Below the pieces are notes generated by a model, which had not been told where the DNA came from, searched no databases, and saw only the letters and a list, made by a program, of their open reading frames with translations. A DNA stretch of 64,000 nt from Leptospiraceae bacterium (GTDB lineage Bacteria; Spirochaetota; Leptospiria; Leptospirales; Leptospiraceae), in NCBI GenBank assembly GCA_947458405.1, contig CANGZW010000001.1, forward strand, positions 1 through 64,000, read 5' to 3'. Shown in pieces: positions 8,825-44,757 of this stretch; position 1 is the first letter of the stretch; each line of letters opens with the position of its first letter. The position numbers and the translations under genes were made by a program.

Positions 8825-10135
8825 TTACTGAAATTCAAATCTCTTTTTAAATCCTTCCACGGTTCTTTTAAAATTTGCATCATTTTTCATTTTTTCATTA
8901 ATCTTTTTAATAGCAGATATTACAGTAGTATGTTTCGTCTGAAATATCTTTCCTATGAATGTTTTATTCAGTTTACACAAATCAAATAATAAATACATAC
9001 AAATATGTCGTGGGATAATAAACTCAGCTTTCCTACTTTTACTTGTGATGTTTGATTTTTCTTGGGAATAATATTCACACACCGCATCTAAGATTTTTTC
9101 GGAAGGAACCTGAACTTTACCTTGTTTCTCTAGCCTAGACTCCAAAATATCCTTAATTTTATCTTCCGGCAATATTAAGACATTATAAGTTTTTTTATAA
9201 AGTGTAAGCTCATTGAGACAACCTATGATTGAGCGTATGTCAGAACGAAAATTTTCTTTTATAAAAGAGATAGATTCTTTTGTTAATTCTAAAGAGAGCT
9301 CTTTGGATCTAGCAGTAATGATAGACTCCCGCACTTTAGGATCTGGGGATCGAATTTCAACTTGGTATCCGGTTGCAAATCTTGACTTAAGTCTATCTTG
9401 CAGTGGTAGTTCGTGAATTGGTCTATCCGATGCAATGATAATCTGGCGTTTTCTTTCTGATAAATAATTGAAAAGGTGAAAGAATTCTTCCTGAGTTTTC
9501 TCAGCACTACTATTCAATTGGTGTATGTCATCAATAATCAGGGTAGTATACGACTGGTATTTCGTTCGAAAGCCTTCTATATTTTGTTTATTTTGAACAT
9601 TATATACAAATTCAGAAAGGAAGCTACTAATTGGAATATAACGCACAGTTTGTCCGGGAATTTTTTGAATATTAGCCCCTATAGCTTGTAAGAGATGAGT
9701 TTTACCTGTTCCTACTTTTCCGAATATATAGAGAGGATTGATACTTCCTGGTTTTTGTGTTACTTCTTTGCAGGCAGAATATGCAAGAAGATTAGATTCT
9801 CCAGTATGAAAATTTTGGAGAGAATAGTCCGGATTAAAATGATAGAGATCTTCATTGAATTTATCTTCAACAAAACCAGAAAGGGGCTTTTTAGTTTCCT
9901 TATCTACTAAAATTTCTATTTGAACTTTACTTCCCAAAACTCTTTCAACGGCATCAATAATAAAATGTTGGTATTTCTTTATAACGTGTTCTTTGACCAC
10001 TGCTGATGGCGCCCGCAAAACTAACCTATCCCTATCAAAATTTTCCATTGATAAGGGAGATATGAATGGATCATAATAAATGGGTGGTATTTGCTTGGAT
10101 ACTTCTTGTAAAACTTCGGGCCAACTAAGGGTCAT
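8825..10135 (-). CDS. dnaA: Chromosomal replication initiator protein DnaA
   Basis: I place the start at the ATG at 10135 (436 aa) because GGAG lies just upstream and the product begins MTLSWPEVLQEVSKQIPP, a normal DnaA domain I; the frame is open further to a TTG at 10216. Domain III has Walker A GKVGTGKTHLL, Walker B TLIIDDIH, and the sensor/arginine region RLKSRF. Domain IV has PRHICMYLLFDL and then IFQTKHTTVISA, where most DnaAs have EFGGRDHTTVxHA: one residue shorter and without the Asp that reads the DnaA box. I recall leptospiral DnaAs having a similar FQTxHTTV form, so this is probably lineage-typical. It initiates replication by binding oriC. No dnaN, recF or gyrB adjoins it. Confidence 0.95.
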   Translation of the reverse strand: MTLSWPEVLQEVSKQIPPIYYDPFISPLSMENFDRDRLVLRAPSAVVKEHVIKKYQHFIIDAVERVLGSKVQIEILVDKETKKPLSGFVEDKFNEDLYHFNPDYSLQNFHTGESNLLAYSACKEVTQKPGSINPLYIFGKVGTGKTHLLQAIGANIQKIPGQTVRYIPISSFLSEFVYNVQNKQNIEGFRTKYQSYTTLIIDDIHQLNSSAEKTQEEFFHLFNYLSERKRQIIIASDRPIHELPLQDRLKSRFATGYQVEIRSPDPKVRESIITARSKELSLELTKESISFIKENFRSDIRSIIGCLNELTLYKKTYNVLILPEDKIKDILESRLEKQGKVQVPSEKILDAVCEYYSQEKSNITSKSRKAEFIIPRHICMYLLFDLCKLNKTFIGKIFQTKHTTVISAIKKINEKMKNDANFKRTVEGFKKRFEFQ

Positions 10136-10608
10136 GGTTTCTCCAGATGAACAATCTAAGATTCTATAAAAAACCATCCTCTTAGAATTAAAACCTAAAT
10201 TCGGAATTGTACTCAAAGAATTTAAAAAAAAATTGACATAATACAGATTTTAAATAATATTATGTCTCATTAAAACGAATAAAAAATATAAAATATTGAT
10301 TATGTCTTATTAAGAAGGTACAATTTTTGATAAACACTTTAGCAAGTACTAAATTAATAAGATATTAAAAGGATAGGGTATTAGAAAAAGAAAATATAGA
10401 AATTTATTTCGTTCGAAAATTTGTAATAAGAATTTTTATAAAACTTGGTAATATAAATATACAAAGATTATAAACGAAAATTTTTATTTTGTTGGATTCA
10501 ATAATTACTTTATACAGAAAGAAATAAATATTCGTAGAAAATTATAAAAATCTGTTTCTAATTGACTGAATTTTATAATTTGGGATTCTTCTTACTTGGG
10601 GGAAAAAT
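10136..10608. other. AT-rich region upstream of dnaA, possible replication origin/regulatory region
   Basis: 473 bases between dnaA and the divergent SGNH lipoprotein gene, almost pure A/T beyond 10217. No perfect TTATCCACA box is visible on either strand. Instead three TTATGTC sequences occur at 10232-10313. TATAAT at 10574-10579 and a GGGGG ribosome site belong to the plus-strand gene. The combination of dnaA, high A/T content and repeated 9-mers suits an origin or an autoregulated dnaA promoter, but no experiment or strand-skew calculation supports it here. Confidence 0.4.
10232..10313. repeat. Three TTATGTC boxes upstream of dnaA
   Basis: TTATGTCTC at 10260-10268 and TTATGTCTT at 10300-10308 are direct repeats exactly 40 bp apart within a 15-bp unit ATTATGTCTyATTAA (14/15 identical). 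TTATGTCAA is on the minus strand at 10232-10240. The full 18-mer at 10256-10273 recurs inverted at 30007-30024. They share TTAT with the classical DnaA box but differ in the remaining bases. Confidence 0.6.
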
Positions 10609-11505
10609 ATGAGAATAAAAAGAATAATAATTATATTTTTACTGTCATTCCTTTCTTTGGGAATCATGAATTGTGATTCAGCAAAGAAAAATACTGCCTT
10701 ATTAGATGATAAGCAAATTGCCTGTTATGTTTTGGCAACATGTAACTATCAGGCAGGGGTAAAGTTCGGAATGGTAGGGGATAGCTGGACTGATTTAATT
10801 TATGGATCGAAAGTCGTAGAAACTCTCAGAGTTCAATTAGAGAAATACCATGGATATAAAATAGTAGGGGCGACTAAAGCTGCAGAGACCTTAGCTGGAG
10901 TTCTTAGTCTGAATACTCATATAAAGGTTATAGATGAGACTGGACCTAGTATTAAATATATGTTAATATCCATGGGAGGAAATGACATACAGGGAAGTGT
11001 TGAAGCTTATAAAAACAATGGATTTGTGACTGAAAAAACAAATCGGTTGGTTACTTTTAAATCAAATTTAAAAAAAATGATTGTTACTGGCAATGCATAT
11101 AAAGTATCAAAGTATGGAGGAGATCCCATCCTATGGGTCATTCATGGGTATGATTTTGCTTCTCCTGATAATGAGATTAATTCCTTATCAACAACTACTT
11201 GTCGTACAACATTAAAAACTACAGGTGGTTTTACAGATGCGCAGGTAAATGGTACAGATCCAAGTGGACTTGGGCTACCACAACTCTTCAATGAGTACAA
11301 TGCTTTGTTGTACACAGTGACTACGGAAGAGCCGTATCTGAGGTATATTGATTTACGTTATACACTAGGAGCTTCTGCAAGTAATAATTATATATCTACT
11401 GCGAGTCTATATGGAGATTGTATTCACCCTACATCAGTTGGATTTAGAATCATAGGTGAGAAATATGCAACTGCAGTTAAGGGGTTAACAAATGATGAAA
11501 GATAA
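10609..11505 (+). CDS. SGNH/GDSL-type hydrolase lipoprotein
   Basis: 298 aa with signal peptide and lipobox LGIMNC (Cys22). Catalytic blocks are present: block I KFGMVGDSWTD (Ser59), block III MLISMGGNDI (Gly-Asn around 124-125), and block V GDCIHPTSVGF with the Asp and His of the triad. SGNH enzymes are esterases, acyltransferases or carbohydrate O-acetyl-modifying enzymes. Here it precedes, with a 14-base overlap, an outer-membrane-like protein and then a 979-aa SGNH-MBOAT fusion, which points to adding or moving acyl groups on an envelope or exported glycan. GGGGG lies seven bases before the ATG and TATAAT 30 bases before that. Confidence 0.8.
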   Translation: MRIKRIIIIFLLSFLSLGIMNCDSAKKNTALLDDKQIACYVLATCNYQAGVKFGMVGDSWTDLIYGSKVVETLRVQLEKYHGYKIVGATKAAETLAGVLSLNTHIKVIDETGPSIKYMLISMGGNDIQGSVEAYKNNGFVTEKTNRLVTFKSNLKKMIVTGNAYKVSKYGGDPILWVIHGYDFASPDNEINSLSTTTCRTTLKTTGGFTDAQVNGTDPSGLGLPQLFNEYNALLYTVTTEEPYLRYIDLRYTLGASASNNYISTASLYGDCIHPTSVGFRIIGEKYATAVKGLTNDER

Positions 11506-29853: not shown

Positions 29854-30163
29854 AGATTACATCCTAAAAATTTATTAAATTCAAAAAAAGTGATAAGAGA
29901 TATATTTCTTTAAAACTCGTTTACCAGTCTTTTATTTTTGTGTAAACTATCAATTCTCATTAAAATTTATCCTTGTAATTATAGAGGTTGAGCTTAGTAA
30001 TTTAAATTAATGAGACATAATATTAAGTTTACTCATTCACAAGGTTTAAAACAAAAGAGATAAATAAAATCAGAAAAAAAATAAGATGAACTTTAAACGA
30101 TAAATAAAAAGAAGCTTGCATTACTGCTAGGATTATTAAAATTTCATACGAAAAGGATACCAC
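29854..30163. other. 310-bp divergent intergenic region (mtnC / STAS gene)
   Basis: AT-rich with no gene. It holds the 18-bp motif TTAATGAGACATAATATT at 30007-30024, identical (inverted) to the one upstream of dnaA. AAAGGATACCAC at 30153-30163 is the ribosome site for the GTG-started STAS gene. No convincing -35/-10 pair was identified. Confidence 0.5.
30007..30024 (-). repeat. Second copy of the 18-bp TTATGTCTC-containing motif
   Basis: Read on the minus strand this is identical over 18 bases to 10256-10273 upstream of dnaA. Both lie in non-coding DNA. It could be a protein-binding site; identity of the binder is unknown. Confidence 0.5.
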
Positions 30164-44719: not shown

Positions 44720-44757
44720 TTATGTCTCTAATATAATCATTAATATTTTTTTGTAAA
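44720..44757 (-). promoter_or_regulatory. Aldo/keto reductase promoter with TTATGTCTC box at the start site
   Basis: Minus strand TTTACA (44757-44752), 16-bp spacer, TATATT (44735-44730). The 9-mer TTATGTCTC (44720-44728, plus orientation) covers the predicted transcription start, a repressor-like position. Confidence 0.45.

Follow-up and report, generated by a model that had tools for sequence, protein, structure and literature searches.

A TTATGTC word common to the Leptospira group, found upstream of dnaA, resembles a site bound by a cell-cycle-type regulator

What reads the short repeats that lie upstream of dnaA in this Leptospiraceae genome? The stretch of DNA analysed (the window, 64,000 nucleotides) carries three copies of TTATGTC in the spacer between dnaA and a divergent lipoprotein gene, and the original prediction took them for DnaA boxes changed to suit a changed DnaA. 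The window genome (G000, 3.94 Mb in 198 contigs) belongs to a group that includes Leptospira and Turneriella; it was compared with families f1 (its own) to f6 of the class, T. parva (G032) among them, with other spirochaete classes as the outgroup. To judge from the words and their positions, TTATGTC is common to the whole Leptospira group and looks like the site of a cell-cycle-type regulator. Replication control and any link between cell cycle and motility appear to have been little studied in leptospires.

Boxes in the dnaA spacer and their conservation

The features of the window are as follows:

8825-10135, minus strand: dnaA, 10135 being the first start consistent with the family
10235-10241, minus strand: inverted TTATGTC box (the plus strand reads TTGACATAAT)
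10259-10273, plus strand: box ATTATGTCTCATTAA, the copy closest to the class consensus ATTATGTCNCATNA
10299-10313, plus strand: box ATTATGTCTTATTAA, 40 bp from the preceding box, of the TTATGTCTTAT form typical of the cluster upstream of dnaN
10609-11505, plus strand: SGNH-type lipoprotein gene, oriented divergently to dnaA; the box lies 341 bp away
30012-30020, minus strand: dispersed intergenic box ATATTATGTCTCATTAA (TTATGTCTC on the minus strand), which precedes an mtnC-like gene and is divergent from a STAS-like gene
44720-44728, plus strand: dispersed intergenic box TTATGTCTC, with an aldo/keto reductase gene 80 bp downstream

The predicted arrangement, two direct copies 40 bp apart and one inverted, was confirmed by coordinates and shuffles. 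The TTATGTC at 10260-10266 (plus strand) extends to TTATGTCTC at 10260-10268, a further TTATGTC occupies 10300-10306 (plus strand), and the direct pair forms a 15-mer, ATTATGTCTYATTAA, with 14/15 identity and 40 bp from start to start. Additional copies had been foreseen near 30007-30024 and at 44720-44728, and both were found; as had also been claimed, no TTATNCACA was found in the region upstream of dnaA. A box also stands 346 bp upstream of a homologue of the lipoprotein gene in G002. The sites share the weakly palindromic consensus ATTATGTCtCWTWA (TTATG-N3-CATAA); the full motif is ATTATGTCNCAT and the operator consensus ATTATGTCNCAT(W)A.

None of 5000 dinucleotide shuffles of the spacer (10136-10608, 473 bp, 21% GC) contained three TTATGTC, and in none of 300 shuffles of the whole window did a triplet arise within 80 bp anywhere. 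Some 7-mer with at least two G/C reached at least three copies in 530 of 2000 local shuffles; because shuffles so often give some repeated 7-mer, the cluster alone is weak evidence, and conservation is decisive. Within 400 bp upstream of dnaA, TTATGTC was present in 12 of 13 f2 genomes (type-2 dnaA), 11 of 13 f3-f5 genomes and 4 of 8 f1 genomes; among the other classes it was found there in one of seven, with TTATNCACA often in its place. In an unbiased ranking it was the top 7-mer upstream of dnaA both in f2 (12/13, 0.6 expected, P 6e-16) and in f3-f5 (11/13, P 4e-14); the latter figure ignores relatedness, and with one genome per genus it is still 6/7 (P 7e-8). A search of contigs for the DnaA of named relatives returned only unrelated DnaA, mostly from Patescibacteria.

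That the repeats are due to chance, or are promoter elements with a -10-like CATAAT, we consider highly improbable. The spacer is low in GC, repeated 7-mers are common in its shuffles, and TTGACA at 10234 and CATAAT do resemble promoter elements; nevertheless, conservation of the box across genera and classes refutes a chance origin, and a -10 element was rejected because the boxes stand in both orientations relative to genes, at distances of 1-250 bp.

The DnaA recognition helix and the region upstream of dnaN

The window dnaA encodes a full-length DnaA (TIGR00362), the sole DnaA in the genome. Its altered recognition segment is real: the helix of domain IV reads FQTK-HTTV, one residue short and with the Asp lost, in all eight f1 genomes. 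The proposal that this alteration explains the box was not supported. Where f2-f5 genomes have the box upstream of dnaA, their DnaA helices are of the (R/K/T/N)DHTTV type; that of f3 is canonical (FGKRDHTTVLHA, RDHTTV) and those of f2 type-2 DnaA are divergent, so that TTATGTC is constant across deleted, canonical and divergent helices. The repeats do occur in relatives with the same DnaA signature, at dnaA in half of the f1 genomes, but the four g4 genomes have the shortened helix and no box at dnaA. The altered helix and the TTATGTC box are therefore not coupled.

The boxes had also been expected to cluster at a GC-skew switch. No switch was seen at the window dnaA locus; upstream of dnaN, by contrast, boxes are clustered in the family genomes, and in G001, which is nearly closed, the skew changes sign at the dnaA-dnaN spacer, being negative before it and positive after (that of the short G000 contig C60 is ambiguous). 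The family origin is thus probably upstream of dnaN. The same region as a class-wide origin was rejected, f3-f5 having no cluster there (three of the dnaN starts in those families were misparsed). Each of seven f1 genomes has 1-3 TTATGTC within 400 bp upstream of dnaN, or 2-6 sites if TATGTC is counted, and an unbiased ranking of this region returned TTATGTC(TTAT), with 15 copies against 0.6 expected, and TTATTTACA, with 11 against 0.3 (P 4e-14). The latter word is TTATCCACA with CC changed to TT and often adjoins TTATGTC; it occurs in five of the seven family genomes, and TTATNNACA in all seven. Six genomes have TTATGTC and TTATNNACA abutting (composite form TTATGTCTTATTTACA), and the seventh has a near match. 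Of the eight family genomes, seven (control 0) each have a single copy of the arrangement AGTTATTTTC-N(4-16)-GACATAT, located 90-120 bp upstream of dnaN (L163 and homologues). Sites of the TTTTTCAC-TATCCACA type lie at the matching place in f2 genomes, whose dnaA1 has the Asp, and canonical-type TATCCACA stands alongside TTATGTC in their dnaA1-dnaN spacers.

As a 9-mer related to TTATCCACA, TTATTTACA fits and TTATGTCNCAT does not, keeping TTAT alone; on the words themselves, TTATTTACA appears the better DnaA-box candidate in the family. Residues 432-435 of E. coli DnaA make base-specific contacts (PMC5043019), and the segment altered in f1 DnaA is their counterpart. Since the altered segment would contain base-contacting residues, the change of CC to TT in the box, taken with the loss of Asp, would make a better protein-box pair, and TTATTTACA would suit an Asp-less DnaA better than TTATGTC does. 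The two changes offer a natural pair for testing the evolution of DnaA specificity. What stands of the predicted lineage-specific replication box is a real, conserved and replication-associated word; the match to the DnaA helix fell away, the word also marks many promoters, and TTATTTACA is the stronger candidate for the DnaA box.

Several observations concern dnaA and dnaN more generally. In G000 the two genes lie on different contigs (8825-10135 of the window and G000:C60:6207-7325) and are also unlinked in g4 and f3, unlike in published Leptospira biflexa. Most f2 genomes (L120-L139) have two dnaA paralogues, one beside dnaN with canonical-type boxes and the other alone with TTATGTC boxes upstream. 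Genus g4 (L032-L034, L038) conserves a palindrome around ATTAGAATGTACTAATATA upstream of dnaA, which replaces the TTATGTC boxes. Almost no GC skew was found in 20 sampled stretches of the T. parva chromosome (L328-L347), so that its origin could not be located in this way.

Genes and genomes carrying the box

In most genomes of the class ATTATGTCNCAT is 10-150 times more frequent than its reversed control (159:1 in G039, 107:2 in G033, 87:1 in G030, 67:1 in G001, 47:1 in G013 and 16:3 in G000); in other spirochaete classes the ratio is about 1:1. Genera g4 and g6 have lost the genome-wide excess and kept sites at dnaN/rep or dnaA/rep. The genome-wide count suggested as a check on the original prediction gave a divided answer: the number of TTATGTCTC in G000 shows no excess (36, as compared with 71 of the reversed word) and was rejected as stand-alone evidence, but its placement is strongly non-random, 25 of the 36 being intergenic as against 171 of 1890 (9%) control 9-mers of the same composition (P 2e-18). 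In G002, 27 of 29 TTATGTCTC sites are intergenic.

The box precedes dnaA, the parAB-linked rep gene, dnaN, nrdJ, pcrA, smc, scpB, parA and flagellar genes. Sites recur in at least two genera at orthologues of dnaA, nrdJ, fliI, fliN, parA, pcrA and HTH_36/rep, and at fliG with its divergent 70-aa neighbour, a DegT aminotransferase and a methyltransferase plus coiled-coil pair; single cases are smc (three sites), scpB, fliF, fliO, flhF and two DNA methyltransferases. Genes without a Pfam match were named by eye from sequence.

Of the 48 class genomes 36 have the HTH_36 gene, and none of 13 from outside the class does; the order parA-parB-HTH_36 held in every genome whose neighbours were read. 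Boxes lie upstream of HTH_36/rep in 29 of 30 genomes (56 sites, 1.8 expected); the same order, with boxes, is found on the 350-kb replicon of L. interrogans and on a T. parva plasmid (NC_018021). The HTH helix of the protein is nearly invariant, and its nearest folds, at weak scores (E about 0.01), are plasmid initiator RepA domains; kinship of its C-terminal domain with DnaA domain I had no support (probability 3%). Leptospira plasmid rep genes immediately follow parAB and suffice by themselves for replication (PMC4338851). Given this shared position and the RepA-like folds, the HTH_36 protein is probably a Rep protein.

Candidate readers of the box

On balance, we lean towards TTATGTCNCAT being the operator of a class-wide regulator (Leptospira, Turneriella) that links replication, segregation and flagella. 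Sites, conservation, placement and word statistics are matters of observation; from them we infer that a protein binds the boxes, that this protein is one other than DnaA, and in which direction it regulates. The putative regulator would act where replication is controlled, namely at the dnaA promoter, the parAB-linked rep gene and, in f1, the dnaN origin, and also at the promoters of nrdJ, pcrA, smc, scpB, parA, fliG, fliI, fliN, fliF, fliO and flhF. Through the three window copies it would set dnaA expression and, acting on both dnaA and rep, the supply of initiator; at the dnaN origin, where its sites abut DnaA-type sites, it may either favour or obstruct the loading of DnaA, much as CtrA or SeqA do; boxes at segregation and flagellar promoters would keep these functions in step. 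DnaA itself would most likely read TTATTTACA/TTATNNACA at the dnaN origin. More tentatively, this may be a master cell-cycle regulator of the class's own, unrelated to CtrA, whose operator TTATGTCNCAT joins the chromosomal origin, dnaA, the rep gene of the second replicon, condensin/ParA and flagella in one programme, the family DnaA having moved to TTATTTACA with the loss of its Asp. Now that there is an operator with its targets listed, a probable position for oriC (upstream of dnaN) and, in TTATTTACA, a candidate DnaA box, mapping of the origin and identification of the regulator become directly testable in the saprophyte L. biflexa.

In other bacteria DnaA regulons take in the dnaA promoter and origins as well as plasmid rep regions and nucleotide genes, and the DnaA box starts with TTAT. 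Perhaps TTATGTCNCAT serves the whole class as its DnaA box, read by DnaA at oriC, at the dnaA promoter, in the second replicon's rep region and, with DnaA as a transcription factor, at flagellar and nucleotide genes; TTATTTACA would then be a weaker second type of site. The clusters upstream of dnaN, in both orientations, irregularly spaced and at the skew switch in G001, agree with such a reading, as do the box upstream of dnaA across the class and TTATNCACA, which is neither near dnaA nor clustered in T. parva. So does the persistence of dnaN/rep sites in g4, where the wider set is lost; survival of origin, rep and dnaA sites in g4 and g6 would likewise be compatible with an essential initiator like DnaA. 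We nevertheless think it rather unlikely, because the box stays constant although the helix is deleted and Asp-less in f1, RDHTTV in f3 and divergent in f2, because canonical-type TATCCACA accompanies TTATGTC in the f2 dnaA1-dnaN spacers, because TTATTTACA is an independent and closer DnaA-box candidate, and because the motif exceeds 9 bp and is weakly palindromic. It is improbable that the reader is instead the HTH_36 protein, a Rep-like winged-helix protein that would regulate its own gene and have been recruited for chromosome replication and flagella. The restriction of its gene to the class, the boxes upstream of it, the near-invariant helix and the RepA-like folds all favour this, and G010 lacks both the HTH_36 gene and the dnaA box; against it, G031, G033, G036 and G039 have a strong motif excess and no HTH_36 detected (the T. 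parva copy is on a plasmid, and such copies may be missing from drafts), and control of flagellar genes by Rep proteins is, to our knowledge, rare.

Among known systems, DnaA boxes (TTATNCACA) and the bipartite dnaA/dnaN origins of B. subtilis and epsilonproteobacteria share with the sites described here the clusters near dnaA and dnaN, both orientations, the TTAT start and, in G001, an origin at the GC-skew switch. However, the core here is GTCNCAT and not NCACA, the motif is longer and weakly palindromic, its sites are dispersed over many promoters independently of the DnaA helix, and a separate DnaA-like TTATTTACA lies in the same origin. The DdrO/RDRM operator of Deinococcus, TTATGTCATTGACATAA, has a TTATGTC half-site in common with the box, but the second arm here is CATAA after N3 rather than a convergent GACATAA, and the targets are not a radiation-response set; window copies read GACATAA...TTATGTC or form direct repeats, never the convergent TTATGTC-N3-GACATAA. 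In its workings the set resembles the cell-cycle regulon of Caulobacter CtrA (PMC4287350): one operator stands at the origin, the dnaA region, segregation and flagellar genes, with DNA methyltransferases among the targets, and is conserved between genera. The motif is not the CtrA site TTAA-N7-TTAA, and the likeness concerns the sites only, with no homology claimed.

The parAB-rep replicons of Leptospira (PMC2229662, PMC4338851) resemble the present locus in having a rep gene, here HTH_36, directly downstream of parAB; a rep box common to chromosomal dnaA, dnaN and flagellar promoters is not described in the available portions of those papers, and a genome-wide study of Leptospira transcription start sites names other motifs only (PMC5243855). 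No description of TTATGTC in connection with DnaA was found in the open-access literature searched, where absence is no proof of novelty. The box also differs from parS, a 16-bp palindrome near parAB bound by ParB, in lying at promoters genome-wide. Another palindrome, TGTCGGATATCCGACA, precedes parA (L326, L327) both on the 350-kb replicon of L. interrogans and on the T. parva plasmid, and resembles a group-specific parS.
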